From: Polytrichum commune
Taxonomy: Eukaryota; Streptophyta; Polytrichopsida; Polytrichales; Polytrichaceae
Direction: 5' to 3'
NCBI GenBank assembly: GCA_950295325.1
Contig: OX485804.1
Coordinates: 21,576,001-21,640,000, forward strand
Length of the DNA stretch: 64,000 bases
Shown here: positions 2,430-46,271 of the stretch, one piece after another
How the letters are laid out: every line of letters starts with the position of its first letter
How positions within the stretch are numbered: the stretch's first letter is position 1
The notes under the pieces: generated by a model
What the model was told of the DNA's origin: nothing
The model's input: the letters and a program-made list of their open reading frames with translations, nothing else
The model's database searches: none
Translations under genes and position numbers: made by a program

Positions 2430-2867
2430 TGTCACGTGAGGTGACATCGGGGGCTAAGTCACGTCAATTTAGGAGTAAATGGACTCCATTAGGAGTCCAT
2501 GTGTGTTTGGATGAGTAATGGACTCCATTGGGAGTCCTAGTTAGTTATTCATCCACTCCATGGATGAACTCCACTTAGGATTGGGGTTGTATGGAGAGGA
2601 AGGCCTCTTGACTTGCCATTGTTGTCAAGTCAAGTCTTGTGAGTGTGTTTTGAGAGAGAGAGAGAGAGAGCTTGTTGTTGCTTTCTCATGGCTATGGTGT
2701 AGTAGATTATGAGTAAAGCCTTTGCATTCTTTCTCCACCACTTGCACTCTTGGATTCTCCCTTCGTGGAGTGAGAGATAGCTTGACTCTTGTGTGTGAAT
2801 TTTAGAGTTTCTTAAGCTTTGTAAGGAGACATTTTAGTTTCTTAAGCTTGGAGAGAGAAACCCTCAT
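2430..2867 (+). repeat. Terminal repeat A1 (5' LTR-like segment)
   Basis: This 438-bp segment begins TGTCACGTGAGGTGA and ends GAGAGAAACCCTCAT. It matches A2 (11802-12233) with about six substitutions, mostly transitions, and a (GA)n length difference near 2650-2670. Unlike the 3' side, it is not followed by segment B. It contains a short inverted motif (GGACTCCATTAGGAGTCC) around 2480-2500 and should include the promoter, although no clear TATA box was found. Confidence 0.85.
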
Positions 2868-4125
2868 ACTTGACAACAATGGCTCAAATTTTTCATTTTT
2901 GGTTGTATTTCTGAGCTAGAATGGCCCAGTAATGAGAGCAAATGAGTGATACAAGTGTTTGAAAGCTTAGTTCGTCATTTCTTGCAACCCTCAAGAAGAT
3001 TTTGAGAGAAATCTTCCCATTTTTCTTTTGTTGTCTCTTGTATTTTCTTCAATTGTTGATGGTTGAATCTTGAGATTCCATTTAGTTTCAAGATTCTCAA
3101 GTCACATTTTCTTGCTTGCAAATTGTGAAGCAAAGTTTAATTTAAATACAAACATAAACCACAATCAAAATCCGATTTAGTTTTAATTTTGGTTGAGCTC
3201 CGGACGGATCCGGAGCTCACCGGACCCTCTTGGAGCTCCTGGAGCTCCAATTATGAATCCCGGGCGGCAGATCCCGAGCCGGGGGCGGGCGGGCGGCGGG
3301 CGGGCCCCGCGGCGAGCTGGCAGCGGCCCGGGCTGGGGGGCGGGCGGGCGGCAGCCAGGCCCAGGTGGCGGGCGGCGCCAGCCTGGCCCCCCCCTTCAAG
3401 GTAAGCCCTTAATTAAGTTAATTAAGTTAGTTAATTAATTAAGTTAATTTAAGTTAAGTTAATTAAGTTAGTTAATTAAATTAGGTTAGGTTCATTAGTT
3501 TAAGTTAATTAAGTTAGGTTGAGTTAAATTAAATTAATTAAGTTAATTCATTTAAGTTTATTTTTTATTTTTAGTTTTTTAAATTTATTTTCCTCTTTTC
3601 ATCAAACCAAATATTTTTATTGTTATTTTTTTTTCTTTCACCTTTCGAACTTGCCATTTCATTTCCACAAACTTTGAGGCTCAAATTTGGGGGCATAATA
3701 GCTCCGATTGGAGTGAAATTTGAGCCTATTTTGTGTGAAATTTGCCAAGGAATCCAATGGTGTAATTGGATTGTTGATTGGAATTCAAAATCATTGCTGA
3801 AATTGCTAATTTCAACGCTGATTTTTGTTTTTGGGAGCAAATTAACTCCGATTGGAGTGAAATTTGAGCCTAATTTGTGTGAAATCTTCCTAGGAGTCCA
3901 TTGGTGCACTTAGTTTGATGATTGGAGTCCATAATCACCTTGGAAATGAGCATTTTCAACGCTGATTTTTAATTTTAATTACCAATCTCAAACCTTTGCA
4001 CAATTTTGGAATTCTGGAGGCATATACATTTGGCATTTGGCAAGGGATTGCCATTTAGATAGTCCGCAACAGGTGCAGGTTGCCATTACCTTGTAGATAG
4101 TTGCAGGTAATCAAGTGATTATTTT
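2868..4125 (+). other. Gypsy element 5' leader, non-coding
   Basis: There is no convincing ORF between A1 and the gag start. The leader is a patchwork. It holds a very GC-rich island at about 3190-3400 with repeated GAGCTC and GGGCGGGC motifs, then an AT-rich tract built from TTAATTAAG-like words at 3405-3570. A two-copy tandem repeat of about 144 bp (3686-3829 and 3830-3973) follows, each copy containing CTCCGATTGGAGTGAAATTT. The GC island could fold strongly and might serve packaging, dimerisation or translation, but that is inference. ORFs called inside the GC island in several frames are compositional artefacts. Confidence 0.6.
3686..3973 (+). repeat. Two-copy tandem repeat (about 144 bp) in the gypsy leader
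   Basis: Two diverged direct copies run 3686-3829 and 3830-3973. Both begin TTTGGG(G/A)GCA, contain CTCCGATTGGAGTGAAATTT and end TTTCAACGCTGATTTTT. Confidence 0.75.
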
Positions 4126-5013
4126 ATGGTGCAAACTAGGAGCCGATATTATCGATCTCCATCACTAGATTACTTGGAGGACGTGGACACCACAAATCTT
4201 GAGCCAGAGGTAGATACCAACGAGGCTTTTGAGCCTATTTCGGCGTTGGACACTACTAGTAGGCTTCGGATTTGGAGTGTTGGCACGTTCGACGAAATGG
4301 AGGACGATCACCACGGTTCAGTGCGTGATCGGTTCTCAAGTCGAGCTGGGGGCATTTCCTTGCCCGACTGGAAACTCCGGTTTCGTACCTGGATTAAGGA
4401 GAAGCGTCAAAGGTCTTCCAATTTCAATGATTGGTATGCCTTTGAGCTTCTGCCTCAACATTTGGAGTATGAGGCACTCCAAACTTATGAACGCTGGACA
4501 GAGGGTCATCAGCGACAACTTCGGGAGGTGGAGCAGTATTGGGAGGCTCGGGTTGAGCTCATTTCAGCCCTTAAGGATGGGGCGGTTGCTACCTTAGCTC
4601 CACCCACCTTAAAGGAGGAGGAATCGCCGGCGGAGTCTAAGGACACGGAACTGGCACTTGGGCCAATGGTGGCTAGCAGTAGCACGGCAACCCTTTCACG
4701 GGTGGCACGTGCTACACAAGCAACATTGACGGCTGTTGGTCCACCACCTCTGTTTAATCCCCTTACTGAATTTGTCGCACATTTGGAAGTGGAGTATGGT
4801 GGGTTTCGGCAAGACCAGATGCAGCGCATCCAGGATTTCCGCCGAGAGAAGGATGATACTCCACGGACCATGTATACGCGACTCGCGCGATTTGCTGTGG
4901 AGTCGGGAGGTGTTTTTGCTGAGAGTCAGCTTGTTAAATTTTTTTTGTCTAAGATTGACAAGCGGCTACTTGAGTTGGCATCACCTTGGATTATCCTCGA
5001 TTACGAGGGCTGA
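4126..5013 (+). CDS. Gag (capsid-like) segment of the gypsy polyprotein
   Basis: The start is the ATG at 4126 (MVQTRSRYYRSPS), the first Met after the long leader. The first 200 residues are acidic and low in complexity. From about 4750 there is a retrotransposon gag region (FNPLTEFVAHLEVEYGGF, then RTMYTRLARF and LVKFFLSKID), the helical capsid domain that forms the virus-like particle. The reading stops at TGA 5011-5013 inside the conserved end of the gag domain, and the same frame continues with ATLAQAFAMVERCDRA, a typical gag ending. That makes this stop a likely mutation (CGA to TGA), not the natural end of gag. It is followed in frame by the zinc-knuckle/protease segment. Confidence 0.85.
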   Translation: MVQTRSRYYRSPSLDYLEDVDTTNLEPEVDTNEAFEPISALDTTSRLRIWSVGTFDEMEDDHHGSVRDRFSSRAGGISLPDWKLRFRTWIKEKRQRSSNFNDWYAFELLPQHLEYEALQTYERWTEGHQRQLREVEQYWEARVELISALKDGAVATLAPPTLKEEESPAESKDTELALGPMVASSSTATLSRVARATQATLTAVGPPPLFNPLTEFVAHLEVEYGGFRQDQMQRIQDFRREKDDTPRTMYTRLARFAVESGGVFAESQLVKFFLSKIDKRLLELASPWIILDYEG

Positions 5014-6822
5014 GCTACGCTTGCACAAGCGTTTGCCATGGTTGAGAGATGTGATCGGGCTCTTTGCCAACATGATGCCACGGATATGGTATCTTGGATG
5101 ACAGAGAGTCCGAAACCAAGAAGAATTGTCACAGCTACTAGTAGTTTAGCTGAGACTCAACCCGTCAAGGAGCAAAAGATTTTGCATTGTTGGGGTTGTG
5201 GAGAATCTGGTCATTCGAAGAATGATCCCAATTGTCCGAAGAGGAAGAAGACCCAGCCTTTAGGAAAATTAAAACAAAAGGTAGAACCAGTAAAGGCGGG
5301 GGAAAATTCTAGGAAGAGACAATTTAAATGTAGCCATTGTGGTGGCACTAATCACGATGTGGATCATTGTTTCCAACTTCATCCTGAGATGCGGCCTGCC
5401 AGTTATGTCACTGGTAGATCTCCACGGGAGCAGAGTCTGGAGGCTAAGGTAGCAGAACTTGAACAAAAGCTCAAATCTTCTGCGTCTTTTGCTCAGATTT
5501 CTGAGCCGCATGTGGGTGGTGGCACCTCGGGCTCGGACATGTATATGTTTGGAGCAACTGGAGAGGTGGTGGCGGCGGCTTCTACCCGCTCACAAACATT
5601 GGCAGATGCGGTGGCTTCCACGAGTGGTGGTAGCAACGAGGTGCCACATCCTCGCCATGCTGGACCTGCGGATCAAATTGGTCAAGCACGTTTACCTCTC
5701 TCATTTGGACTGGTAGACACCACTGTTGTTGGGGCTAAAAACCCGGTACTTTTGAGAGATGGGGATTCCATCTCGAGGGATGTTACGCAGGCATTGGCAT
5801 ATAAAATTCTCCATATGCCAATTTTCTCGGGTTCGGAGTTGATGGCTCCGGATTTGAAGCCTGCTGCAATTTTTCATTTAGCTGGGAGAATGTTAGAAGG
5901 TAAGGCGGATTTGCCATCCCTTCAAGTATTCCAAGCTGTTGTTGATGTACCTGTGGCTGAGGAGGTGGAGGACTTAGCCAATTTGCGAGCGGGTCTTGCG
6001 GATGCGGCGATCATTGCTTTTGGTAAGCAAACTGATATTCCTCCAGCATCAATTTCAGCAGTGGATACGTCATTTTCGAATTATGCGTCGGGAGCGGCAT
6101 ATCTTGCAGACATTTCTGCAAGGCCTGCTCGCGAACGGCATAATTTGCAACCTGGAGTTGTACGGCTGATGAACGACAAATCTTTGTTTGTCGTTTCACG
6201 CACGGATATGCCCACTATCCGTGCTACACCACTGAGAGTTATGATGGATTCCGGTGCTCAACCGGTTATGATTGGCAAAGGACTTGTTGATAGTTTTGGA
6301 TTGACGCCAGCAAGCTTGGATCCTTGTCCATTCACTATTGTGACTTCAGTAGGGGGCACTGAACGTGCAACAGGTCATACCAAGGCACCTCTACGTTTGA
6401 TTTTTCATGTGGGGGTAGGGCCTACTTACACTCATTTGTCAATGAAGTGTGTTGTTACTAATGCTACCAACTATGATATACTTGTTGGTCAGCAAGCTCT
6501 TTACCCACTTGGCTTTGGTTTGGATAATTGGACGGAAGAGGCATGGATTAGACCGGGATGGTCCACTGGAGATGGCAGGAAGGTATTTATTCCCGTCACA
6601 TTTGCAGCCACTGCTATGACTATGGTTGCGGAGGCAATGTTTGGTTGCAGCGGTTCAGTTGCAGATTTGCCTTGTGCTCCAGTTTTATTGGAGGAAACAA
6701 TGGACTATACTTGTAATGCGGCAGAACAACAATTTTTACCATCTTTTCAAATTCCTGCTCGACATTTCAAGGATCCACCTCCACCATGGCGAACTCCTAA
6801 GGAGTTATCCGACCATTGTTGA
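5014..6822 (+). CDS. Nucleocapsid zinc knuckles and aspartic protease segment
   Basis: This continues the gag frame. Two zinc knuckles are visible. The first is CWGCGESGHSKNDPNC (5188-5235), with a slightly long last spacer. The second is a canonical C-x2-C-x4-H-x4-C (5329-5370). These bind genomic RNA in the particle. A linker follows, with a short charged helix (LEAKVAELEQKLK) and a Gly/Ser/Ala-rich stretch. The aspartic protease (about 6180-6520) has the catalytic D-S-G in VMMDSGAQPVMIG (Asp at 6247-6249) and a second hydrophobic half around YDILVGQQALYPLGF. The first ATG of the open piece is 5038, but homology shows the true product is continuous from gag. It ends at TGA 6820-6822, in frame with the methyltransferase. 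Confidence 0.85.
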   Translation, partial: ATLAQAFAMVERCDRALCQHDATDMVSWMTESPKPRRIVTATSSLAETQPVKEQKILHCWGCGESGHSKNDPNCPKRKKTQPLGKLKQKVEPVKAGENSRKRQFKCSHCGGTNHDVDHCFQLHPEMRPASYVTGRSPREQSLEAKVAELEQKLKSSASFAQISEPHVGGGTSGSDMYMFGATGEVVAAASTRSQTLADAVASTSGGSNEVPHPRHAGPADQIGQARLPLSFGLVDTTVVGAKNPVLLRDGDSISRDVTQALAYKILHMPIFSGSELMAPDLKPAAIFHLAGRMLEGKADLPSLQVFQAVVDVPVAEEVEDLANLRAGLADAAIIAFGKQTDIPPASISAVDTSFSNYASGAAYLADISARPARERHNLQPGVVRLMNDKSLFVVSRTDMPTIRATPLRVMMDSGAQPVMIGKGLVDSFGLTPASLDPCPFTIVTSVGGTERATGHTKAPLRLIFHVGVGPTYTHLSMKCVVTNATNYDILVGQQALYPLGFGLDNWTEEAWIRPGWSTGDGRKVFIPVTFAATAMTMVAEAMFGCSGSVADLPCAPVLLEETMDYTCNAAEQQFLPSFQIPARHFKDPPPPWRTPKELSDHC

Positions 6823-7854
6823 CACATTGTAGCGGATTTGGAGCTTGGAGAGGCACCTCCAACTTCATCCTCATTTTCTTTTGCTCAACCCATCCGTTGG
6901 CAACCATCACCTGAAGGTATTGTCATTGTGGAGATCTTTGGAGGCATTGGCACAGGTTTGGCGGCAGTGTTGGAAGCTGGAATTACAGTTTGGAGATATA
7001 TTCATGTGGACAATGGGTATGCAGCCAACAGAGCCGTCCGACATCACATCCAACAATTGTTGTTGAGATACCCCGCACAATTGTCAGCCTCTGCCATTCA
7101 TGGATGTTGTGGTCAACTTCCTCAAGATGTCACTATGATTAGTGATGAGGATTTGAGAAGGTTGGGCCACGTGGATTTGATTATTGCAGGATGGCCTTGT
7201 CAAGGCCATTCGCGGGCAGGAACTGGCCAGGGATTGGATGACTCTAGGTCTAGTTTGTTTGCGGATTTGATGCGATTGACGCAATGGTGGTTTACCCACC
7301 AATCAACTCCGCCAGGGTACATTTTCGAAAATGTACCATTATTGGATGATTCCCGGCACAAAGTGGTGAATGATGGTGAGTACATTAACCAAATTATGGG
7401 TACTCCAACATTTCTGGATGCTGCATCTTTGGGATCCTTTGCTCATCGGCCTCGTTGGTTTTGGACCAACTTGGTATCACCTCGGATGCTTTCAGCGGCG
7501 ATTGCCCGCATTTCCCGCCTTATGGATCGCAAGGTGGATGACATTTTAGATGATCATCGTGTTTCCTTGGCAGTTACCAAGGATGACACCTTGCCATTTG
7601 CATTAATTAACAAGGTGGGAATTCCGAGAGGTGTACTACCTACTTTTGTGACATATCCACAGTCTTTTGCATTTCGATCTCGTGGACCTGGCATGGTTTG
7701 GGATTCAAAATCCCAAACTTATGAGGAGCCTACGGCAGATGAGCGGGAACGCGCCATGGGTTTTCTTACAAGTACCACGGCTGCTCACGGGCTTCAGGAA
7801 GGTCAGAGACGTTTCCTATTGGGGCAAGCTATGGATCTTAATAGCATTGTGTGA
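6823..7854 (+). CDS. C5-cytosine DNA methyltransferase domain inside the gypsy polyprotein
   Basis: A nearly full catalytic domain, expected to transfer methyl from S-adenosylmethionine to cytosine C5 in DNA. Visible motifs, in unpermuted order: motif I EIFGGIGTG (6931-6957, cofactor binding); motif IV GWPCQGHSRAG with catalytic Cys at 7198-7200; motif VI ENVP (7327-7338); motif VIII-like SFAHRPRWFWTNL (about 7435-7473); motif X-like LLGQAMDLN (about 7814-7840). The HRPRWFWTNL block and motif order resemble DNMT3-type enzymes, while PCQ resembles DNMT1/CMT. Plant DRM enzymes have rearranged motifs, so this is not a simple DRM copy. It lies between protease and reverse transcriptase, in frame with both, bounded by TGA stops at 6820 and 7852. 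All catalytic motifs look intact. Membership of the family is firm; the subfamily needs a tree. Confidence 0.93.
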   Translation, partial: HIVADLELGEAPPTSSSFSFAQPIRWQPSPEGIVIVEIFGGIGTGLAAVLEAGITVWRYIHVDNGYAANRAVRHHIQQLLLRYPAQLSASAIHGCCGQLPQDVTMISDEDLRRLGHVDLIIAGWPCQGHSRAGTGQGLDDSRSSLFADLMRLTQWWFTHQSTPPGYIFENVPLLDDSRHKVVNDGEYINQIMGTPTFLDAASLGSFAHRPRWFWTNLVSPRMLSAAIARISRLMDRKVDDILDDHRVSLAVTKDDTLPFALINKVGIPRGVLPTFVTYPQSFAFRSRGPGMVWDSKSQTYEEPTADERERAMGFLTSTTAAHGLQEGQRRFLLGQAMDLNSIV

Positions 7855-8337
7855 ATAATTGGAATTTGTCTTGCTGCTCAACAACGTATGGATAACCAAT
7901 TGCTTACTCTGAGGGCAGAGAACAATGGTCAGGGGGCAATGGAGCCGCAATCCAATGATCACATTGAGGTCAATAACACCAAGGGATTATTTCCTTTGAA
8001 ACTTCATGTTGCGGAAGAGCTTCGAGCCCAACGTGTTTTTTCGGTTTTGGCCCAAGAGTTTGGGAAGTTGGAGGCCCATAAAATGTTTCCACTTCTATTT
8101 CTTGGTGATACTTCATATGTGGGTAGCTATTTAGCTACACAGACTGATTGTAGTGGAGAGGATACGCATTTGGATTCAAGTACAGATGATGGGGGCAAAG
8201 GTGTTGCCCTCTCTACGGACTAGCAATCACAGGCTGTGCTGGCACCAAATGGCAATCCTTCTATGAAGAAGGAAACCACGGAGTTTGACGATTGGCCAAT
8301 TGAAGTGGGGCCAAAACTTACTGGTGTCGAAGCATGA
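7855..8337 (+). CDS. Linker between methyltransferase and reverse transcriptase, function unknown
   Basis: The same frame continues past TGA 7852 (IIGICLAAQQRMDNQL) and stays open from 7888 to TAG 8221, then to TGA 8335. The peptide is polar, with FPLKLHVAEELRAQRVFSVL as a probable helix and an acidic Ser/Asp/Gly-rich end. I recognise no domain. The first residues may complete the last helix of the methyltransferase. The segment just before the reverse transcriptase (EFDDWPIEVGPKLTGVEA) resembles the usual gypsy protease-RT spacer in position. Stops at 8221 and 8335 are close together, so this is the most broken part of the frame. Confidence 0.6.
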
Positions 8338-9000
8338 AAGGTACGGGCATTTATTCGCTCTTACCGTAATTGTTTTGCCTTTAGTCTTCATGATCTTGAA
8401 GGATATAAAGGTAAACCTATTCGTATTCAACTCGAGGACGACCATCCTATTTTCAGACGGCCGTACAGGCTTAGTACATCTGAAAGGTTGGGTGTTCAAA
8501 CTCGATGTCAAGAATTATTGGCAGCGGAATTGATTGAACTCTCCAATGGAGAGTATGCTTGTGCCATGGTTATGCCTTCAAAGAAAGATATCTTTGGCAA
8601 CTGGACGAAAAAACGGATGTGTGGTGATTATCGTCCAGTCAACCGCAAGACCAAGTCGGATCGATATCCAATGCCGATGCCCGAGGAGTTGTTTGATGCA
8701 CTGGGATTTGCTAGAATCTTCAGCGCTCTGGATTTGAGGTCTGGTTATTATCAATTACCTTTGTTTTTGGGTGATCGGGTGAAGACCGCATTTTGGGGAA
8801 TTGATAAAGATGGCAAGGATCAACTTTATCATTGGAAATTTTTGCCATTTGGTCTTAAGAATGCACCAGCTGAATTTCAGCGGGTGATGGACCAATTATT
8901 GGCTGGTTTACCGTTTGCTAGATGTTACATTGATGATGTTATCATCTTTAGTAATAGTTCACATGATCATGTGAGACATTTGCAAGCGGTATTTGAATGA
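8338..9000 (+). CDS. Reverse transcriptase, N-terminal part
   Basis: After TGA 8335 the frame gives FAFSLHDLEGYKG, then PIFRRPYRLS and the palm motifs: MCGDYRPVNRKT, then FSALDLRSGYYQLPL and FLPFGLKNAPAEFQRVMD. The catalytic YIDDVIIF box starts at 8926 (Asp codons 8932-8937). This is standard Ty3/gypsy reverse transcriptase, copying element RNA to DNA in the particle. A reading that starts only at an internal Met (8488) would omit the fingers, so the product must be part of the polyprotein. TGA at 8998-9000 falls inside the domain, where gypsy elements have FERLxxxGLRL, pointing to CGA (Arg) mutated to TGA. Confidence 0.9.
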   Translation, partial: KVRAFIRSYRNCFAFSLHDLEGYKGKPIRIQLEDDHPIFRRPYRLSTSERLGVQTRCQELLAAELIELSNGEYACAMVMPSKKDIFGNWTKKRMCGDYRPVNRKTKSDRYPMPMPEELFDALGFARIFSALDLRSGYYQLPLFLGDRVKTAFWGIDKDGKDQLYHWKFLPFGLKNAPAEFQRVMDQLLAGLPFARCYIDDVIIFSNSSHDHVRHLQAVFE

Positions 9001-9684
9001 CTACAACGGTGGGGACTCCGTTTACATCATGGCAAATGTAAGTTTTTCCATGATCAATTGCCCTATTTAGGCCACATGATTGTTCCTGGCGGTCTTGGTG
9101 TGCAACAGGCGAAGGTGGATGCTTTGCACAAAATTCCCGCACCTAGTGATGTACCACGGCTTCGTGCATTTCTAGGATTGGTAAATTATTATAAGAGGTT
9201 TGTCAAAAACTTTAGTTTGATTGCCAAACCTCTTACCATTCTCACGGGGAAAGACCAACCATGGATTTGGAGTCGGAAACAACAACATGCATTTGATATA
9301 TTGAAGCAGAGGCTCGGTTCAGCGCTAGTGCTTCGACGCCCGGATGTGTCTAGAGGTTTTCAATTGCACACGGATTGGAGTGCAGTGGGATTGGGAGCGG
9401 TATTGACACAGAAAAATGAAGAGGGAAAGGAATATGTGGTGGCTTATGCATCTAGAAGCAATAATAGTGCTGAATCTAATTATTCTTCTTATGAAGGCGA
9501 GGCCTTGGCGGCCGTTTGGGCCATTGCATATTTTCGACCTTATTTGTATGGGCAAAAATTTACTTTGGTGACTGATCATCAGCCTTTAAAATGGCTTATG
9601 GAATCAGATAAGCTCACCGGCAAACTTGCTAGGTGGGCACTGTTACTTCAGGAATATGATTTTAAATTTGTTCACCGAGCATGA
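9001..9684 (+). CDS. Reverse transcriptase thumb and RNase H
   Basis: The frame continues from the stop at 8998 with LQRWGLRLHHGKCKFF, then YLGHMIVPGGLGVQQAKVDA and RAFLGLVNYYKRFVKNF, the classic gypsy thumb/connection. RNase H follows: LHTDWSAVGLGAVLTQ carries the first catalytic Asp, SSYEGEALAAVWAI the Glu and LVTDHQPLKWL the second Asp. The enzyme removes RNA from the RNA-DNA hybrid. The segment ends at TGA 9682-9684, between RNase H (FKFVHRA) and the sequence leading to integrase (IANLDADGLSRNP); gypsy elements normally read straight through here. Confidence 0.9.
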   Translation, partial: LQRWGLRLHHGKCKFFHDQLPYLGHMIVPGGLGVQQAKVDALHKIPAPSDVPRLRAFLGLVNYYKRFVKNFSLIAKPLTILTGKDQPWIWSRKQQHAFDILKQRLGSALVLRRPDVSRGFQLHTDWSAVGLGAVLTQKNEEGKEYVVAYASRSNNSAESNYSSYEGEALAAVWAIAYFRPYLYGQKFTLVTDHQPLKWLMESDKLTGKLARWALLLQEYDFKFVHRA

Positions 9685-11367
9685 ATTGCCAACTTGGATG
9701 CAGACGGATTGTCTCGCAATCCAAGTCTTTCAGATGAGGATTTAACTGGAGTCAGGTGGCATGGAGATTGTGATCGTGAGGCAGTGCCGGGTTGGCATGC
9801 TGCCACATATCTCACAATAATGTCGGGATTGGCTGCTGAGATCCTTGTAGAAGAACAAGATGAGGAGGTTGATAAATCTCTCGTTGTTAGTGATGTGTGG
9901 GAAGACCAGGCGGTCTTGCACAAACTTCAACAAGGGATATTTTCTCTTGGACTATCTGCTATGGAGCGAGATAGAGTTAGTCACCAGATAACAAGGTTTC
10001 GTTGGGCAAACAGCTTGTTATTTCGTGTGTGGCCGAACGGAACGAGGTGCATCGTTCCAAGGCCAGATCAAAGAGCTTCTTTGGTCCAGCAAGTGCACGA
10101 GGAGCTTGGACATTTTGGAATGCGAAGGACGCATTCTATGTTGCGCAACCAATATTGGTGGACTTGTATGTATCAACAGGTTGCTACTTATGTTTCTTGG
10201 TGTGAAGTATGTGACCGGGTCAGGTCAAGTTTTAATACTTTGTCACCTCAACTTCAGCCTTTACCTATTATGGGCTTGGGATATCGTTGGAATTTGGATT
10301 TTGCTGGACCACTTACTATCACTCCACGTGGTTCCAAGTATGTGCTTGTGATGGTGGAGCATTTTAGTAAGTGGATTGAACTCGTGGCTCTTCCCCAAAA
10401 TTCCTTAGAATTGGCGGCTATGGTATTTCTTGATCGAGTTTTGGCACGGTTTGGAGCACCTGCAGAGGTGTTGACGGATCAAGGGAGAGAATTTCTTGGA
10501 TCTTTCGAGGCTTTGTGTACCAAGGCTTTGATTGATCATCGTACAACTTCCAGAGATCACCCTGAGGCAGATGGTTTAGCTGAACGAGTTGTTCAAACGG
10601 TTAAGCGCGGTCTGCGGAAGTATGGATTGCTTCATGGCAACCATCGCGATTGGGACTTGATGTTACCATGGATAGCAATGGGTTACCGTTTCAGCAGGCA
10701 AGCATCTTTGGCATCTTATAATCCATACCAACTCTTGTATGGACGGGAACCAATTTTACCTAGCTCGGTGCAAGAGAAATTGGCTCCCGTGGTAAACTTG
10801 GATGATCCAGATGTTTGGGCTCAATGTCTTCATGACCGAGCAACGTTCTTCCAAAAGGCCATGACTATGGCCATGGAGAACTTAAATATTGCTCAACATC
10901 GTGACACATTACGGTATGCCCAGATCCGCAGTGGAGCTTATCGACCTCAGGTTCGTAGATTTTCCAAGGGGGATTATGTTTATTTGCAACGGGAGGCGCC
11001 TACGACATTGGATGTCAAGGCTGGGCGCACGATTTTGCGGGTAAAAGATGTCTTGCCAAGTGGTATATTATTGCTTGAAGGCAAGGATGGACGGGAATGT
11101 CGTGAGCATTCAAAGAATTGTGCTCCATGTCACCTCCCCATCGACGGCTCTGTGCATTCCGAGTTGGCGGTTGTACCACAGGGTCTGCCTTGTTATGTTT
11201 GTGGAGAGAAGAAAGAAGCTGCAACAATGTTATTGTGCGACCAATGTCAACGTGGATGGCACATGGCATGTTTGACACCTCCCCTTTTGACTCTTCCTTC
11301 TGGCAATTGGGTTTGTCCTCGTTGTCGGAAAGCCTCTCATTCCGTGGCCGTTAATGGTCATGATTGA
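9685..11367 (+). CDS. Integrase with C-terminal PHD finger
   Basis: A DDE integrase followed by a PHD zinc finger. The N-terminal HHCC zinc domain has His at 10096 and 10111 and Cys at 10201 and 10210. The catalytic core has Asp 10297 (NLDFAGPL), Asp 10477 (LTDQGREF) and Glu 10582 (DGLAERVV). A GPY/F-like C-terminal region (GDYVYLQREAPTTLDVKAGR) follows. The end is a complete C4HC3 PHD finger: Cys 11191, 11200, 11236 and 11245, His 11260, Cys 11269, Trp 11308, Cys 11314 and 11323. PHD fingers read histone H3 tails, so this one may steer integration, much as chromodomains do in chromoviruses; that role is inference. The frame is open through to the natural TGA at 11365. The Met-like start at 9694 is not a real start. 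Confidence 0.92.
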   Translation: MANLDADGLSRNPSLSDEDLTGVRWHGDCDREAVPGWHAATYLTIMSGLAAEILVEEQDEEVDKSLVVSDVWEDQAVLHKLQQGIFSLGLSAMERDRVSHQITRFRWANSLLFRVWPNGTRCIVPRPDQRASLVQQVHEELGHFGMRRTHSMLRNQYWWTCMYQQVATYVSWCEVCDRVRSSFNTLSPQLQPLPIMGLGYRWNLDFAGPLTITPRGSKYVLVMVEHFSKWIELVALPQNSLELAAMVFLDRVLARFGAPAEVLTDQGREFLGSFEALCTKALIDHRTTSRDHPEADGLAERVVQTVKRGLRKYGLLHGNHRDWDLMLPWIAMGYRFSRQASLASYNPYQLLYGREPILPSSVQEKLAPVVNLDDPDVWAQCLHDRATFFQKAMTMAMENLNIAQHRDTLRYAQIRSGAYRPQVRRFSKGDYVYLQREAPTTLDVKAGRTILRVKDVLPSGILLLEGKDGRECREHSKNCAPCHLPIDGSVHSELAVVPQGLPCYVCGEKKEAATMLLCDQCQRGWHMACLTPPLLTLPSGNWVCPRCRKASHSVAVNGHD

Positions 11368-11692
11368 GGATTTTGTGGATGTTTACCACATGTTTTAGTG
11401 GTGAAGTTGTTATTTAGTTGGTTGGAAATTTTATGGGATTGAAAATCACATTGAAAGAGTTATCCAAGAATTCAACATAAATTGTTGAAGGCGATTAAGG
11501 ATGGGGCTTAAATTGCACCCAGCCTACAGTTCTTGGATTACTTTCTCAATCATGAGTTTAATTCCTTAGATTACCACTACCCAATTGAATATGTATAGAT
11601 GTAGCAACAACTTCATCATGTTCAACAACTCTACCGATGAGTGTGTTTGTTCCTAGCCGATTGGAGGGGCTCCTTATCTGCTAGTGGGGGCA
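11368..11692 (+). other. Gypsy element 3' untranslated region
   Basis: About 325 bp between the polyprotein stop and repeat B1, with no ORF. Near its end lie CTAGTGGGGGCAC and CTTAAAGAGGTGG (11693-11705); either purine-rich run could be the polypurine tract priming plus-strand synthesis. Confidence 0.5.
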
Positions 11693-11799
11693 CTTAAAGA
11701 GGTGGTTGTTTAGCATTTTACTTTGCTATTTTATTTTGCTAATTGATGTTGACGACGACACTCGATCTGTTGTGTTTAACGATCTTAGTTTACACGACA
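11693..11799 (+). repeat. Terminal repeat B1
   Basis: A 107-bp segment starting CTTAAAGAGGTGGTTG and ending TTTACACGACA. It is repeated at 12234-12340 (B2) with three differences. It stands directly before A2 with a two-base spacer GC (11800-11801), so B1-GC-A2 reads like a junction of two element ends (GACA / TGTC). Confidence 0.85.
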
Positions 11800-11801
11800 G
11801 C

Positions 11802-12233
11802 TGTCACGTGAGGTGATATCGGAGGCTAAGTCATGTCAATTTAGGAGTAAATGGACTCCAATAGGAGTCCATGTATGTTTGGATGAGTAATGGACTCCAT
11901 TGGGAGTCCTAGTTAGTTATTCATCCACTCCATGGATGAACTCCACTTAGGATTGGGGTTGTATGGAGAGGAAGGCCTCTTGACTTGCCATTGTTGTCAA
12001 GTCAAGTCTTGTGAGTGTGTTTTGAGAGAGAGAAAGCTTGTTGTTGCTTTCTCATGGCTATGGTGTAGTAGATTATGAGTAAAGCCTTTGCATTCTTTCT
12101 CCACCACTTGCACTCTTGGATTCTCCCTTCGTGGAGTGAGAGATAGCTTGACTCTTGTGTGTAAATTTTAGAGTTTCTTAAGCTTTGTAAGGAGACATTT
12201 TAGTTTCTTAAGCTTGGAGAGAGAAACCCTCAT
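11802..12233 (+). repeat. Terminal repeat A2
   Basis: This is the second copy of A1, beginning TGTCACGTGAGGTGA and ending ACCCTCAT. It runs straight into B2, so A2+B2 (539 bp, TG...CA) looks like a full LTR. It differs from A1 by about six substitutions and a shorter (GA)n tract. Confidence 0.85.
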
Positions 12234-12340
12234 CTTGAAGAGGTGGTTGTTTAGTATTTTAGTTTGCTATTTTATTTTGCTAATTGATGTTGACGACGAC
12301 ACTCGATCTGTTGTGTTTAACGATCTTAGTTTACACGACA
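12234..12340 (+). repeat. Terminal repeat B2 (right end of the gypsy element)
   Basis: Second copy of B1, starting CTTGAAGAGGTGGTTG and ending at CGACA, immediately followed by the target duplication GTTT and LINE A. No B copy follows A1 at the left end. Confidence 0.85.
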
Positions 12341-13094
12341 GTTTGTATGTGGATTGAAATTCTTTCGGGGTTAGTATGACTTTGGTAATGGGGTTTTGGA
12401 TTTATGTTAGTGTGGTGATGCCGTATATGTATAGTTTGTCTAGATATTTTTGGGTCTTGGCTTTCGATACGTCCGTTAGGGTGTTATAATTTGGGTTGGT
12501 TTTCCAAATTCTTTCTAGTAATGTTTCTTTGATGGGGAATGTTTGGTTTGTAGAGTGGACGTGGATTTCGTATTCTCTTCCAAGGAGAAAAAATATTCTA
12601 GCTATAGGGGATCGTACACATGCTTGTTGTTTGAGTTTGGGGAGGTGTCGGGCCCCACCGTACTTGGCCGCTATATATTTGGTTAGCCCTTGGTATATAA
12701 TGCCTAATTGCCCGGGTCGTTAAGTGCTTGAATTAGTTGTTGTCCTATGCATCGGATGTAGTCGGGTAGTAGGGAGGTTACATTAATGCCAAAGATTTCT
12801 TGTGGGAGGTGGGTAAGAATGTTGGCCGAGCTTTTGGGGATGTTGCAAATTTCTTTGGTTAGTTTGCTAATGATTTTGTCTAATTTTTTAATATCTGGTT
12901 TGGAGAATGGGACGGCGTAGTAGACGTATGCTATTCGTGGTTTAATGACTGTATTCATAATTTTGATTTTTTTGTGTGAGGCTAGCCGGTGAGCTAGTTA
13001 GGAGTTGCTTTGTTGTTTGACTTTTTTCATCATTATTTCTTTTTGTAGGTTCCATTTGACTGATGGTGTGACGTTTATTCCTAAATACGTATAT
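12341..13094 (-). mobile_element. LINE A, upstream part (C-terminal half of reverse transcriptase)
   Basis: Minus-strand reading gives the thumb side of a LINE reverse transcriptase: YLGINVTPSVKWNLQ near 13090-13050, then IAYVYYAVPFSKPDIKKLDK and NIPKSSANILTHLP (open in complement(12704..12958)). A frameshift or stop near 12720 is followed by IYQGLTKYIAAKYGGAR. The same blocks occur in LINE B at complement(27541..28647), which supports the call. Downstream it joins 1-2429 once the gypsy element is removed: the four bases GTTT lie on both sides. Upstream it ends abruptly at 13094, where an unrelated 1-kb repeat starts, so the fingers/palm part of the reverse transcriptase is missing. Confidence 0.85.
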
Positions 13095-14100
13095 GGTTGA
13101 AGCTTATTATGCAACAACTTCTTCTTCCTTTGGTTTTTAGCATAAACCAGTTGTGAACAAGAATGAAGGTGTAAAGGGGTTTAAGAGAGAGTAGTGTAGG
13201 CAAGGACAACAAATTCCAAGGGTTTTCAAGGCAATGAATATTACTCATCATCGAATCCTACTTGACGAGCCAAATTCGATTGAAATAATCTTTATCTGCA
13301 GTCAATTGTTTGAAATACATTTGATGAAAGACAATGACGATGTTGCTAGTTCCAACTATATGGATGTAGTGTAAATTTCTTTCATCTAAGTTTATGTAGT
13401 GTAAAATCACCAAAACATAATAGTTTATTATTATTATGACAATGATTCCTCAAAGTGAACTTTTAGGAGACAATCTTCACAATATTTAAGGTCATGAAAT
13501 CTACGTCCAAAGCTAGATTCAAATATTTGCTTTTGAGCATTACTTTTAATGCTAAGTTTTGAAGGTCTTGACTTGATATTCTACATTTGATTATTTAGCA
13601 CAATAATAAAGGTCATCATGAAAAAAAAATTCAATTTAAACAACCGTTTGCTACTACTTTTAGGCCTTTGACTAAAACATTTATGGTTTTAGTATACCGG
13701 AGCACTATTTTCATCCACTTTACCATGCTTGCACCCATATATTAAAAAGTTGTATTGTAGAACTAAAGCATTTATACAATTACACTATTCTAAAGCTCTA
13801 AGCGCATAACGATAGGGCCGTTTACCCTAGTTGAAAATTATTGCCAAGCTCCCAATTTTTTAGCAAACTTAGTCTCTTGTAAACAAAGTAGGAAAAGTAG
13901 GAAGATGTTTCGGTCATCACTTGTAAGTCATGAGCCTGCATTTGAGTCTTCAAAGATTCACAAGTTTAGGAATAAACTTGAGAACCTAACTGAATATACA
14001 ATATACAACATGGGCAAAAGCAGTGGTGGTGAGGAGTCCCATCATTCTCAACATTTATGAGAACAATGGACATAATTGGCGAGGTGACATCTATGTGGGT
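13095..14100. repeat. Dispersed 1-kb repeat R1, copy a
   Basis: A 1,006-bp block starting GGTTGAAGCTTATTATGC and ending GACATCTATGTGGGT. It matches 50276-51280 in the same orientation with few differences. No ORF, terminal inverted repeat, TG/CA ends or target duplication was seen, so the class is unknown. Copy a abuts LINE A exactly at its left end. Confidence 0.8.
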
Positions 14101-18546: not shown

Positions 18547-18656
18547 ACTTGAAACAGAAGAGGAAGAGGGAGAGGAAGAGGAAGAAGAAGATGATGATCT
18601 GAAGTGCAAACTCTGGAAGTTCATTTCTTGCTAACCAGGCATTGTTGCACACAATC

Positions 18657-21600
18657 ATGGAGTTTTTGGGTAGCAAGTACGAGTTGCTTGTTAACATTGC
18701 AGCAACCTTGGCCACAATTTGGATCCTTTCAAGGCTAGTGTTTCCGCGCAAGAAATTAAACCTCCCTCCAGGACCTCGAGGGTGGCCAATCCTCGGCAAC
18801 CTGTTGAGTTTAGGGACCCACCCGCAGATCACTCTCACAAATATGGCCGAGATTTATGGTCCAATTTTGTATTTGCGGCTCGGGCAGAGAGATTGCATTG
18901 TGGTGTCGTCACCTGAGATGGCCGAGGAGTTTCTCAAGAACCGCGACTCAAATTTCTCAGGCCGACCGCACATGATCCATGGTGACATCGTCGCGTATGG
19001 TAGTCAAGGTACAAATTCAATCATCAACTCGACTCTAAGGTATGCATGCGGGTCTCATTTAATTTGTTTTCTTGTTCTCCATCTCTTATTGATCAGATGT
19101 ACGTCTCCGAATCTGTGTTGCATTAGCACGTCTATGATGAAACATCAATGAAGACCTGATTGGAATCGGATCTCCTCTGATTTAGTGGAAGTGTATGTTT
19201 GTTGATTCTTTAACCGAATATATAGGTTCTCTCATTCATTTGTGTCCATTATTGAGCGTGGAGTAGATACGAAATTTGAAGTCGTAGTCCAATCTATTTT
19301 AAACATGTGTCTTTATGGTGTTTTGCTATGATCCTCGCCAAACCACACCAATGAGTTATAGGAGCCCAATTAAGAATTCCCAAATAACACCTGTATACTT
19401 TATTGATTCATAAAATTTGCAGCAAATTCTTAGTTTGAAAGTTTGATTCATGTTCTTTACGGATTCATGTTATTTTACTGTTAGATTTGAATGCTGGCTC
19501 ATGAAGGAAAATCATGGCTGAGATAAATAAGGAATGAAAAACTAAAAAAAAGTGCTTACGTAATCTAAGAAAGATATCAAAGATTCATGTCACATTGTTT
19601 TTATAAAAATTGTAGCTTTAATTTCCTTGGTGTTCAAGGCACAAATACATCCACAAAGGACTCCATTGATTAATCAGCACAGATGTGGGTTGAAGGAGGC
19701 TCAGTGTCATTGAAGTTCACTAAAATAAGACCATGGAACTAAAATTGTGCTATCAAGCTGAAGCTCTTGGATCTTATCACATAATGTAAGAGAGACATCA
19801 AGGATTAGCTGATGACTGTCCTTCTCACCACCATCTCTTATGCCCTCCCCTAGTGGTGTCCAACTTCCTTAGTTTGGACAATGTATTAGTAACTAGGATT
19901 TAAGTATATTTGAATTTAATCACTATATTCGTTAATTGGAGACTTTCTCTTGTCTCAAATTAATATATGGACCGCAACAACATGTTCTAATGTTTGGGTG
20001 GTTCTATTTAAACCATCTTGATATGAGTTCTTAATTGGGTTCTTGATATGAACAACCGTTCAAAGTATTTGCATCTTACAACATTCTTCTATATCTGTGT
20101 GATTTTATCCATGTTCTTATATTTGTAACTGTCTCAAAATGCCGATAAAGTCCCAAATTAACGAATATAGTGACTGTCCCTTCTCACCACCATCTCTTAT
20201 GCCCTCCCCTAGTGGTGTCCAACTTCTGTAGGTTGGACATTGTATTAGCAACTAGGATTTAAGTATATTTGAATTTATGCATGAATTTTGGACGATTCCA
20301 ACCGTCAACATGGTGTACACTAGACAATAGAACTACACAAATATGGTCGTTGGTGAACTTGGAATACAAGCCTTCAAAGTTGTGGTTGTTGTCCTATTGT
20401 TGTCTTATTGTTGTCGTTTGATGTTTTTGTTGCAACAAGTGCACATCCCGTATTACTTTTTAACAAGTGGTTTTTCCAAATATACTTAAATGTTAGTTTA
20501 ACCCTACATCATTCAAAGTGGTTCTCATTTAACTCTGTATGCACACTCCAAAATCACTTTATGAACTTAAAATTATTATTCACATAATGATGTCTTCATG
20601 CATACTTGTATAATTAAGAGAAGTTAATGATGAGGAATAAGACATTTGCAAGTTACCCATTTCGAATATGGTGTTTAGAGTACACATAAACACGTGACTA
20701 TACATTAAACACCATATTCATGTGTACTCTATGGAATAAGACATTTGCAAGGCACCCACAAGATATAAGACTTTAACAAGTTAACTGCCTTGTTCTACTA
20801 AGCTTACTTTGAAGTTTAAAGGATGCATAATACATATCATACACAATGTACATATCCTATGTGCATGATATTCATAACATAAGACTAGTACCAGAGAATG
20901 ATGTAGGTTTTTTGGAATAGTTAACCCATAGTTTATATCCACATTGGTCAAGACCATGTTCAATCTATTGTGGAATTTAGCTTTGGACGACCAAAGTGTT
21001 GAACCGGATGTCACTCTACGGTACGTGCCAAACCTTCTAAAAACTAGTTTCTTTTTAATAGAGTACACATGAATTTCGAGATCCAAAAGGTACAAAGCCA
21101 CAAGTGTACTTTTGGGGGCTTGATCGAGGGTATGGTTGCGATTCCGATTTGATCGTTTTCCCTACAGGTATTGGGTTCCAATCCGTGAATCCCAAGTGGC
21201 GCCACATGAGGACTATTTTCCAAGTGGAATTAGCGGGTTCAAAACGTTTGGAAGCCACAAAACATGTGAGAAGTGAGGAAGCAAAATGTATGTTGCGTGC
21301 AATTGCACAAGAAGAAGGGCTTTTCAATGTAAAAGCTCAATTGAATGTAATGATATCCAACGTGATCTCCCGCATGATCCTCAACAAGCGGTTTATGGGT
21401 GTTATAAAGGACAACACGGTGGATCTAGCAGAAGCTCAGGAGTTTCGAGAAACAGCTGAAGAAATTGAATATCTTTTGGGTGCCTTCAATATAAGTGACT
21501 TCATTCCTGTGTTGGCGAGGTGGGATTTACAAGGCTATCAGCAGCGCATGAAAAAAGCTCACAAGCACATGGACACGTTCATTGGGAAGATAATGGCTGA

Positions 21601-23222
21601 GCATCAAGCGCGGAGGCAGTTTGGGCCTGTCCCCGAATGTGACCAAGACATGGTGGATGTTTTGTTGGAGAAACTTGAAGGGGAGGGGACCTCTAAAAAT
21701 CAATTGTCAGAAAACAACGTCAAGGCCATCATTCAGGTTAGAATTTCAAGTTTTGTGTCTGTTTCCCGCAGCTTGATCTGTTCTCATGTATCAAGCTCAG
21801 TCCTGATGGAAATTTAATTTTTGGTTGAGTAGTGAGTTAGGTCGTTGTTTCACTCTCAAGTACTTCAACGATGCATGGTGCTCAGTTGACATATAAGGTA
21901 CTAAGCGCAACGAAATTGGTCACTTATCTTAATTGGACATCTGTATTGCACTGGCACGTGGTTAGGTCAGTGGATATGGAATTGGACATCAAAACGTTTA
22001 AAAGAAACTGGACTACGTGCTCACATTTTGTTAAGTATCAAAGGTTTTGTAGTCAACACAACTAAAATAATTTAAATGATCATTTAAGATGAGGAAGAAT
22101 CTTCGTTTTGGTAAAATTTGAAAACGGCATTTATATGAGAGGATTATGAGAATACTCGTGGAGCCTGATGACCTCGATTTGGATTTGCTAATCATCTCGT
22201 AATGCGCATTTCATATCCTACGAGAAATGGGTGCAGAGCTAAAAGTCCCTGTTTTAGGCCCATTTGACGTACTATTATTGTATAAGAGGGCACCTAGTAC
22301 AAACAGGTTGTTAATTACCTCCCACAAGCAACCACGTAGGGGGGAAACGTATGCTAAAAGTGGGAAAAAACCTGGGAGAGGGATAAGTTTCTCATTACAG
22401 TTGATGGGAAATAATTAGGAGTTTGCTTGAATACGGCCACTTAGTGTTGCATTAGCCAATGTCTCTTTATTTTCCCATGCTGTCTGCTAGTCCACATTTT
22501 CTCCCTTGACCAAAATTAGTAATGGAGGGAGGTTAACATGATGTTGAGTGTGACAAAATTCTCATGAAATTTTGTTGGTAACATTAATGCAGGGTTCATT
22601 CCTTGCAGCAACAGAAACAAGCATAGTCACCATTGATTGGACAATGTCTGAAGTTTTTCGCAACCCGTCAGTCATGAAGAAAGCACAAGCGGAGCTGGAT
22701 GATGTGGTTGGCAAAAACAGATTGGTGCAAGAATCGGACCTCCCAAACCTCAAGTTCATTCAATGCATACGCAAAGAGAACTACCGTCTTCATCCCCCAG
22801 CACCCTTGCTTCTTCCCCACGAATCAATCGACGCCTGCACAGTCTTTGGTTATGACATCCCTGCCAAAACCCGGTTGATGGTGAATGTACGTGCCATTGG
22901 AAGAGCTCCCAAGATTTGGGATAATGCATTGACGTTCGATCCAGACAGGTTCATGGAAGGCAAATACTCCAAAATGGACACTCACGGGCAAGACTATCAG
23001 TTGTTGCCTTTTGGATCAGGGCGGAGAAGTTGTCCAGGCATGCAAATGGGCAATATCATTGTGCCTTTCGTTGTTGCAAATCTTTTGCATGCATTCAATT
23101 GGTCACTTCCAATGGATCCCAAAGACCTAGACATGTCAGAAGGGACTGGCCTCTCAGCACCTCGAGCTGTACCATTGCAAGCCATTGCTAAACCTCGGTT
23201 ATCACCCTCCTTCTATGAATGA
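18657..23222 (+). CDS. A-type cytochrome P450 (CYP71-clan-like), three exons
   Basis: A microsomal monooxygenase gene. Exons are 18657-19008, 21168-21736 and 22593-23222, giving about 516 residues, normal for the family. Introns are GT-AG: 19009-21167 (phase 1; acceptor TTTTCCCTACAG) and 21737-22592 (phase 0). An N-terminal membrane anchor (LLVNIAATLATIWILSRLVF) is followed by the hinge LNLPPGPRGWPILGN. The I-helix oxygen-binding motif is AATETS, the K-helix ExxR is ENYR, and FDPDRF is the PERF-like motif. The haem loop is FGSGRRSCPGM, with the Cys ligand. All core motifs are present, so it is probably functional. I chose ATG 18657 over the upstream ATG 18642 because MEFLGS precedes the anchor directly; either is possible. 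ORFs running into the introns are artefacts. Substrate and family number cannot be given from sequence alone. Confidence 0.92.
19814..20278. repeat. Direct repeats flanking a CACTA-like MITE in P450 intron 1
   Basis: A segment of about 105 bp occurs at 19814-19918 and again at 20172-20278. Both start GACTGTCC, contain ACCACCATCTCTTATGCCCT and end TATATTTGAATTTA. The stretch between them is the CACTA-like MITE listed separately. The repeats are too long to be an ordinary target duplication. Confidence 0.75.
19921..20172. mobile_element. CACTA-like MITE (252 bp) in P450 intron 1
   Basis: Terminal inverted repeats of about 26 bp: the left end is CACTATATTCGTTAATTGG, and the right end ends CCAAATTAACGAATATAGTG. 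The CACTA/TAGTG termini are those of the CACTA (En/Spm) superfamily. No clear 3-bp target duplication is seen. A related single end lies at 63690-63721. Confidence 0.65.
20636..20757. repeat. Small compound inverted/direct repeat in P450 intron 1
   Basis: AATAAGACATTTGCAAG occurs twice as direct repeats (near 20637 and 20733). Between them GAATATGGTGTTTA and GAGTACACAT each recur as their reverse complements. This is probably a remnant of a small inverted-repeat element. Confidence 0.5.
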
Positions 23223-27540: not shown

Positions 27541-28647
27541 TTAGACCCTGTAGCATTTGTGCTTCTTGCATCCAGCGTTTTCGAGTGGGGATGGGTGTAG
27601 GAGGAAGTTGTTTATTGTACTTTTAAGGTGGACTCCAGCTTTATGCTTGAGCAGAAATAGTGTTCTAGTGATAGGTGATCTAACACAGTGGTGGTATTTA
27701 ATACGGGTAATTTCTTTAGAACCTCCGTATTTGGCAAGTATAAATTGCGTTAAGCCGGTATAAATTTTCCCAATACGGCCTTTGTCGTTAAGGGCATTTT
27801 GTAGTTGCTCTCCAATACACCGTTGATAGGCATTTTGTAGTGAAAATGCTTCAATTCCAAATAGGTTGTGGGAGAGTTGTGTAGTAATATTAGATGTGCA
27901 TTTGGGTATTCCGCATATTGTTTTATGGAGTGTGATGATCTTTTTGTCAAGTTTTTTTATGGCTGGTATGGAGTATGGTACTGCATAAAAACTATATGCT
28001 ATTCCAGCGCGTATGACTGTATCAGCCATGTTGATTTTTTGTTTCATAGTGGTTGGGCATGTTACGAGGGCTTGACATTGTTTGGTTACTTTAGCTGTAG
28101 TGGTATTTATTTGTGTTTTCCACTTGAGTGATGGTGCGAGATTTATTCCTAGGTATGTGTAGGGTTCGTGTTGGTTTAGAACTGGTATAGGTTGGTTTCT
28201 ATAGTTTATGTTGGTGGATTGGATTAGGGCCTTGAAGGTTGTGGGGTTAAGTTTAGATTTGTTTGGGCATCCAGTTACTGCGCATTTTGGTATTCCTAGA
28301 TCCATTCCTACCCATTTGTAGAATTTGTCTAATTTATGTAATTGTGTTTGTAGTGTCTCTAGTTTGTTGGCTATTGCTGCAAGGTCGTCTGCATATGCTG
28401 CTGATGAGATTTTGATTCTAGACGTACCGAAAGTATATTCATTGTTTATTTGTTGTAGCCATCTGAGTAGGGGCTCTAGAAATATGATGAATAAGTATGG
28501 GCTAAGGGTATCGCCTTGTATTGTACCTCTTTGGATGTGGATTGGTAGGGTTTTTCCGAAGTGTTCGCCAATAAATATGGTTGAAGATTGTGAGTATATG
28601 TTTCCTATGAGGTTTATTGAGTCAATGGGGTAACCCAAGTTTTTCAT
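27541..28647 (-). pseudogene. LINE B reverse transcriptase, longest open segment
   Basis: A 368-codon open stretch covering the palm and thumb of a LINE reverse transcriptase, which primes on nicked genomic DNA and copies the element RNA. It shows GTIQGDTLSPYLFIIFLEPL, the catalytic YADDLAAI and GIPKCAVTGCPN, then the thumb blocks YLGINLAPSLKWKTQ and IAYSFYAVPYSIPAIKKLDK. The upstream fingers continue in the same strand to 29230 with stops. The internal Met is not a true start. Confidence 0.85.
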
Positions 28648-45721: not shown

Positions 45722-46117
45722 GGAGCTGCTAATTAGAGCAGGCCTCGGACTGTAATTCCATGTAGGCCCCCTGGAGCTGCTAATTAGTGCAGGCCTCGGA
45801 CTGTAATTCCATGTAGGCCCCCTGGAGCTGCTAATTAGTGCAGGCCTCGGATTGTAATTCCATGTAGGCCCCCTGGAGCTGCTAATTAGTGCAGGCCTCG
45901 GACTGTAATTCCATGTAGGCCCCCTGGAGCTGCTAATTAGTGCAGGCCTCGGACTGTAATTCCATGTAGGCCCCCTGGAGTTGCTAATTAGTGCAGGCCT
46001 CGGACTGTAATTCGGAGTAGGCCCCTTGGAGCTGCTACTTAGTGCAGGCCTCGGACTATAATTCGGAGTAGGCCCCTAGAGCTACTAATTAGTGTAGGCC
46101 TCGGACTGTAATTAGTG
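45722..46117 (+). repeat. 51-bp minisatellite, about 8 copies
   Basis: The unit starts GGAGCTGCTAATTAGTGCAG and contains GCCTCGGACTGTAATTCCAT. Copies begin at 45722, 45773, 45824, 45875, 45926 and 45977, then degrade to about 46117. There are no unique spacers between copies. Confidence 0.9.
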
Positions 46118-46271
46118 CAAGCCTCGGCTGCAACCCAACCTAAGCCTCTCCAACTATCTACCTAATCCTACCAAACCCCCTACCTAATTACTCTAACCAA
46201 GCCCACTAATTCCACTAAACTCCTACCTAATTCCCACATTCTTTTTAGCTCTACGAGCTCCAAAATCCTAG

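Follow-up and report, generated by a model that had tools for sequence, protein, structure and literature searches.

Why would a retrotransposon carry a cytosine methyltransferase of its own, when cytosine methylation is a main weapon of plants against such elements? The question is raised by an open reading frame at positions 6823–7854 (+) of a 64-kb window (the whole stretch of DNA analysed), which encodes 343 amino acids from stop to stop and matches the Pfam family DNA_methylase (PF00145, 2.9e-12). The motifs EIFGGIGTG, GWPCQG, FENVP and AHRPRWFWTNL follow one another in linear order, and DNMT3 was the best match by three methods, namely by sequence, by profile and by predicted fold. Judged by sequence and modelled structure, the domain is an unpermuted DNMT3-type C5-cytosine methyltransferase, with motifs I, IV, VI, VIII and a C-terminal motif in linear order. 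This agrees with an earlier, sequence-only reading, which had described motifs I, IV, VI, VIII-like and X-like in order and a DNMT3-like motif VIII, unlike plant DRM, where the motif order is permuted. The domain is about 25% identical to DNMT3A, DNMT3B and DNMT3C, its motif IV reads PCQ instead of their PCN, and the ORF showed neither an ADD nor a PWWP domain. DNMT1, CMT and DNMT5 were not named among the PDB matches of the profile (E 0.01) or the 50 structural matches listed, a result that excludes none of them.

The methyltransferase belongs to a Ty3/gypsy-type element that spans positions 2430–12340 and is bordered by the target-site duplication GTTT (2426–2429 and 12341–12344). A single reading frame on the plus strand (4111–11367) holds all coding parts, in the order gag/CCHC, DSGA protease motif, methyltransferase, reverse transcriptase (RT), RNase H, integrase and PHD finger. 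The Gag and protease part occupies positions 4111–6822 and the methyltransferase 6823–7854; an in-frame tail (7855–8220), which is also present in P0001 and six other proteins, completes ORF1. Beyond a conserved stop with its context UAG-CAA-UCA (8221–8229) lie the ORF2 parts, RT and RNase H (8224–9684), the integrase with an H2C2 zinc finger and an rve core (9685–11160, the C-terminal limit being approximate) and a C-terminal PHD finger (11187–11330; PF00628, 4.9e-11). The order of the Pfam matches is C5-methylase, RVT_1, two RNase H families, integrase H2C2, rve and PHD. The two ORF pieces ahead of the methyltransferase had no Pfam match; a CCHC region and a DSGA protease motif can be read in their translation, and aspartyl protease families were detected in the relatives P0109 and P0136.

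The sequence-only reading had proposed a Ty3/gypsy-type element with its own C5-methyltransferase, its motifs lying in order and in frame between protease and RT, and the motifs, the Pfam matches and the common frame all bear this out. What it had left unmentioned, besides the PHD finger and the split repeats, is that this frame carries seven stops ahead of its final one. One of them, the TAG at 8221, is kept in relatives; the other six are TGA codons in the Gag and protease part (5011, 6820), at the end of the methyltransferase piece (7852) and in the RT and RNase H part (8335, 8998, 9682), and are damage to the window copy. Since two TGAs bound the ORF at 6823–7854, its limits are set by this damage and not by the gene. 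The window copy is a broken, dead member of its family. All six of its damage stops are TGA, with no TAA or TAG among them; a recoding signal was considered and rejected, as the stops are mixed in the 30 copies fetched from the same genome (19 TAA, 12 TGA and 9 TAG in the region equivalent to window positions 5323–8220).

The element sits inside a LINE-like minus-strand frame, of which pieces lie at 1031–2308 and 12402–12719 (−); the latter resembles part of a frame at 27541–28719 that has an RT domain. Elsewhere in the window are a plant-like cytochrome P450 gene in at least three pieces (18603–23222 (+), PF00067), three nested inverted-repeat pairs at 29275–33553 (arms of 411–502 nt, 98–99% complementary), an array with a 51-nt unit (45666–46124) and an inverted repeat with 826-nt arms that are 100% complementary and 1144 nt apart (46370–47195 and 48340–49165). 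Direct repeat pieces of 300 nt at 13095–14044 and 50276–51224, 96–97% identical and 37 kb apart, perhaps represent another mobile element. Rfam and tRNA scans of the 64-kb window found nothing.

The genome to which the window belongs (407.8 Mb in 64 contigs) yielded at least 118 scored copies out of 580 candidates, with 85–100% identity. They are spread over seven large contigs (C1 to C7), and 15 of the 118 are listed with a 1386-codon open frame without internal stop. This identity among 118 copies, together with a predicted fold best matched by DNMT3, argues that the methyltransferase ORF is more than a chance reading frame. The best-scoring 30 of the 118 loci were fetched, and ends were analysed in 20 of these, the window's own copy and nine others, mostly rearranged or decayed, being excluded; decayed copies are therefore under-represented. 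A query with ORF2 gave 44 scored copies of 4167 candidates in the same genome and revealed a second subfamily, in which a methyltransferase 62–64% identical to the window's lies ahead of ORF2 at all four loci inspected (L092–L095). A 9285-base contig (L001) filed under a cyanobacterial (Synechococcales) bin also carries the whole domain order, divided between two long ORFs that share one frame; the ends of this retrotransposon contig (1–9285) overlap by 127 bases.

The sequence-only reading had proposed a search for other genomic copies, reasoning that copies without the domain, or a chimeric join, would reduce the case to a one-off event. Nothing was found in favour of a one-off capture of a host gene by a single element, or of an assembly join; the window copy is decayed. 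This explanation is refuted to the point of being negligible by the domain's presence in the 118 scored copies, in all four second-subfamily loci, outside this genome in L001, and in proteins of named plants. Judging from these sequences, the methyltransferase is a family trait of this Ty3/gypsy-type element.

How is the enzyme dosed? At the end of ORF1, all 30 fetched copies, including the window's, have TAG CAA followed by TCA (29 copies) or CCA (one copy). TAG CAA TCA is likewise found in L001, and TAG CAA TTA at the four second-subfamily loci, so that the context varies only within CAA-YYA while neighbouring residues differ. Seven database proteins of close kin (P0001, P0002, P0003, P0005, P0006, P0007 and P0104) end at the same place as ORF1. 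ORF2 follows in the frame of ORF1 in the window, in L001 and at three of the four second-subfamily loci, where no upstream stop in that frame lies within the locus; the fourth is frameshifted upstream. TMV-type leaky stops obey the rule UAG-CAR-YYA, and we take the UAG-CAA-YYA at the end of ORF1 to be such a readthrough context. Both have UAG CAA followed by UCA, CCA or UUA and an in-frame ORF beyond; in the element the stop divides Gag-protease-methyltransferase from RT-integrase, and readthrough is predicted from its sequence. Since this context ends the methyltransferase ORF, the methyltransferase should be made at the level of Gag, and RT-integrase in smaller amounts.

The simplest reading of the stop would thus be programmed readthrough with the methyltransferase on the Gag side. 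If the UAG were not read through, ORF2 would have to be expressed from a separate start or from a spliced or subgenomic RNA, and the predicted ORF2 proteins P0164 and P0166 do start with a methionine downstream of the stop. Such starts carry little weight because ORF callers work that way, and the fixation of UAG and CAA-YYA among differing neighbours, as well as the shared frame of the two ORFs, makes this explanation quite unlikely. Additional synonymous constraint at the junction was also considered (pS 0.34 over 37 codons) and was not upheld per codon (17/27 versus 728/1590). Dosage at the Gag level is not general, since Klebsormidium P0217 and other relatives run from the methyltransferase into RT without a stop.

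The ends of the element are unusual. The window copy has the layout GTTT-A-coding-B-GC-A-B-GTTT, starting with TGTC and ending with GACA. Repeat A1 (2430–2873, starting TGTCACG) forms the left end and is 97% identical to A2 (11802–12238); B1 (11693–11799, ending GACA) is 97% identical to B2 (12234–12340), which forms the right end and again ends with GACA. B1 and A2 meet in the junction GACA-GC-TGTC (11796–11805), around which 20 bases are the same in L001. In the 20 further copies, A is at the left in 19, and the right end is B-A-B in 18 and B alone in two; a 4-bp target duplication is present in 17 of the 19 comparable ones. The junction GACAGCTGTC occurs in 16 of the 20 copies, in L001 and at all four second-subfamily loci, which also repeat B. 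Two copies, L043 and L046 (ends L070/L071 and L088/L089), have the arrangement A-coding-B with a single B and still show 4-bp duplications, a short integrated form.

A plain LTR reading, in which 11802–12238 was first taken as the 3' LTR and a 108-base flanking repeat was puzzling, was abandoned when further copies showed A-coding-B-A-B. Ty3/gypsy elements have identical LTRs at both ends; here A stands at the left and B at the right, and because the ends differ we call the family Gypsy-type by its proteins and not a plain LTR element. It also differs from DIRS elements, which have a tyrosine recombinase and no target duplication, in its rve integrase and 4-bp duplications (17 of 19). The two bases between CA and TG resemble joined unprocessed integrase ends, so a circle-like junction may be the form from which copies integrate or the route by which they are completed.

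Is the enzyme kept by selection? Polymorphism was counted in 26 of the 30 fetched copies, four rearranged ones being excluded. In the methyltransferase, changes private to one copy comprise 26 synonymous and 83 non-synonymous ones (per-site ratio 1.0), whereas those common to at least two copies comprise 22 and 20, respectively (Fisher p 0.0015 against private changes). RT shows the same contrast (p 0.0005), but the flanking linkers do not (p 0.14). For private changes elsewhere the ratio falls to 0.49 in the gag spacer and to 0.76 in protease and RT, and rises to 1.6 in the linkers; since it is not 1 everywhere, it is a rough neutral yardstick. Between the window and L001, the methyltransferase has a pN of 0.19 and a saturated pS of 0.79 over 317 codons, while pN is 0.38 in the preceding linker and in the following tail. 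Because private changes look neutral and shared ones conservative, the methyltransferase is under selection, and our reading is that copies that transpose onward retain it.

The near-identity of the A repeats indicates that the family moved recently: in 17 other copies, A1 and A2 differ by a median of 0.24% and a maximum of 1.16%, and in six of the 17 they are identical. They are more diverged in the window copy than in any of these, with substitutions at six of 437 aligned positions, five of which are C>T or G>A. C>T and G>A together account for 66% of the 561 private changes in the 26 copies, and the C>T changes per site amount to 0.262 in CG, 0.210 in CHG and 0.175 in CHH, CG being only mildly higher. 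Such an excess is as expected of methylated plant DNA, be the methylation by the host or by the element itself. CpG depletion, considered as a sign of self-methylation, was not seen (0.69 in the element, 0.57 elsewhere in the window), so any self-methylation has left no CG trace that can be seen.

The element also has relatives outside its own genome. The 120 proteins listed by a profile search include ones from Marchantia polymorpha (MARPO_0008s0049), Calypogeia fissa, Sphagnum troendelagicum, Closterium and Klebsormidium nitens, and the best 120 of 999 matches to ORF2 add Riccia sorocarpa, Haematococcus lacustris and Tetrabaena socialis; among the matches listed, the nearest named relatives are bryophytes and streptophyte algae, and we take the host to be probably a bryophyte. 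Marchantia P0111 aligns in one stretch with ORF1 residues 271–1267, from the CCHC region to beyond the methyltransferase, and Klebsormidium P0161 in one stretch with residues 706–1027, from the protease into the methyltransferase; Sphagnum P0123 aligns with ORF1 in two separate stretches. Of the 94 listed relatives with an alignment extending to the PHD region, 89 show a PHD-like cysteine pattern, and Pfam found the PHD finger in five of six relatives, the exception being Klebsormidium P0217, a partial record. P0166, an ORF2 relative that is 66% identical to ORF2 of L001 and has all domains including PHD, is transcript-derived, so some member is transcribed in a eukaryote. The methylase P0002, named Obscuribacterales, falls in the clade of L001, and both look like eukaryotic DNA in bacterial bins. 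No relatives of the element were found in viral contigs by the methyltransferase, the integrase part or the junction pattern; the methyltransferase profile gave 16 loci with short methylase matches and four Streptomyces loci.

A survey of the domain's position covered the window and L001 ORFs together with 283 database proteins, and gave 208 sequences with a methyltransferase. The domain stands without RT or integrase in 159 of them, before RT in 18, between RNase H and integrase in 30, and in a rearranged fragment in one. The RNase H-integrase class (P0209 to P0274) is a large group of 1.4-1.8-kb-codon polyproteins, one of them named Tetrabaena socialis, and many of its members seem to have no motif IV cysteine pattern. 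In an unrooted methyltransferase tree, this class (24 of 59 rows) forms one side of a branch with support 96/96, and likewise in a quick unrooted tree (26 of 73 rows, SH-aLRT 94). The smaller tree omits 14 rows of the larger one, namely seven ORF1 rows and seven long-branch rows, the latter including two of the RNase H-integrase class and five with the domain before RT; its 22 ORF1 rows are labelled as before RT although RT is not in those proteins. P0274 and proteins with a short domain were left out of both trees, which contain neither host DNMT3 nor a root. In an unrooted RT-integrase tree, built with a simple model and under a warning of long branches, 29 members of the class fall in a group of 33 (SH-aLRT 100), no methyltransferase domain being detected in the remaining four. 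P0282 and P0283, whose domain precedes RT, are placed with the other class by the RT tree and with their own class by the quick methyltransferase tree, where their branch is very long; this counts against a clean split. Either a single capture with a later move or two separate captures of close relatives may explain the two positions.

Retrotransposon-borne DNMT3 is not new as a kind. The sequence-only reading had pointed out that such captures were reported in 2018, and the paper of de Mendoza et al. (2018, PMC5890265) indeed describes KnitGypsy-Dnmt3 of Klebsormidium nitens, a Gypsy element with a DNMT3 domain in Pol, besides SymbioDIRS-Dnmt3 and SymbioLINE-Dnmt of Symbiodinium, which are also retrotransposon-borne cytosine methyltransferases. 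According to this text, KnitGypsy-Dnmt3 shares with the window family the Gypsy domain set, the DNMT3-type domain, purifying selection and A-coding-B-A-B repeats, an arrangement called 'the same as that of a DIRS retrotransposon' (PMC5890265, Fig. 4 legend). The window family has its domain between protease and RT as in the KnitGypsy-Dnmt3 type; in the latter (Klebsormidium P0217) the methyltransferase and RT form one open frame, whereas UAG-CAA-YYA splits them here. The DIRS group has two domain positions, like the relatives of the window family, but the Symbiodinium elements use a tyrosine recombinase or LINE machinery instead of a DDE-type integrase (rve) with 4-bp target duplications (PMC5890265). 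As reported there, two SymbioDIRS-Dnmt3 domains conferred de novo CG methylation in yeast and the Klebsormidium domain did not, a result judged inconclusive by its authors since human DNMT3B also failed. A further paper mentions, for streptophytes and dinoflagellates, LTR and DIRS retrotransposons that contain DNMT3 (PMC12344493). Within the accessible open-access literature, a scope outside which most subscription papers and preprints lie, there was no report of liverwort or moss members, the stop context or the PHD finger. On this comparison, the liverwort (Marchantia, Calypogeia), moss (Sphagnum) and Closterium relatives appear to be new, as do the predicted leaky-stop dosage, the C-terminal PHD finger and the second domain position between RNase H and integrase. 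The TGTC and GACA ends, the 4-bp target duplications and the conserved GACA-GC-TGTC junction are further additions of this analysis.

What, then, does the enzyme do? Our main reading, to which we give a probability of about one half, is that this recently active Ty3/gypsy-type family needs its DNMT3-type methyltransferase, makes it at the Gag level and would use it to methylate its own cDNA. The methyltransferase is the last folded part of the Gag-protease-methyltransferase ORF, and RT, RNase H, integrase and PHD follow in frame. Termination at the UAG would be the rule and readthrough occasional, and the methyltransferase, present at the level of Gag, would enter the particle. New double-stranded cDNA, linear or circular, might then be methylated before or during integration, so that the copy could pass as host DNA or escape attacks directed at naked DNA. 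The PHD finger may help the integrase to pick its chromatin.

The enzyme could instead be selected for an action elsewhere, on target host chromatin, competing elements, DNA viruses or RNA, or for slowing its own element's spread and thus sparing the host. Published proposals point in these directions, the accessible text of PMC5890265 listing RNA methylation (for LINE-type elements) and host-sparing, and that of PMC6338049 proposing defence against DNA viruses. The placement beside Gag and protease and the predicted Gag-level dosage would favour a role within the particle, and we regard action elsewhere as a real but lesser possibility. It is also conceivable that a structural function or nucleic-acid binding, and not necessarily catalysis, preserves the domain. 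In line with this, a crude pattern applied with fragments included found PC[QN] in just 12 of the 30 proteins of the RNase H-integrase class and in 11 of the 18 whose domain precedes RT. Among ORF1 proteins covering at least 300 profile positions, however, 33 of 36 have PC[QN] and 33 of 36 have AHR.R by the same kind of crude pattern, and the motif IV cysteine is nearly invariant in a 31-row alignment, which makes a non-catalytic role unlikely.

Beyond self-methylation of cDNA by this family, a wider version can be proposed, although we hold it to be doubtful: one old green-lineage Gypsy clade may have had DNMT3 and an integrase PHD finger since before the split of Klebsormidium and land plants. 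Its bryophyte-type members would dose the enzyme at the Gag level via UAG-CAR-YYA, methylate circular or linear cDNA and integrate from abutted A and B ends (GACA-GC-TGTC) with a DDE-type integrase.

Our findings add land plants to the alga and the dinoflagellates in which the phenomenon was reported. As Marchantia, in which genetics is easy, is among the carriers, the question left open in 2018 of what use a retrotransposon has for its own DNMT becomes open to direct tests. From the conserved stop one would predict that the enzyme goes with Gag, and the split repeats predict the mode of integration. If the wider proposal is true, the element both writes DNA methylation and reads histone marks, settling in silent chromatin or making it. 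A recently active family keeps, under selection, the very kind of enzyme that hosts normally use to silence such elements.
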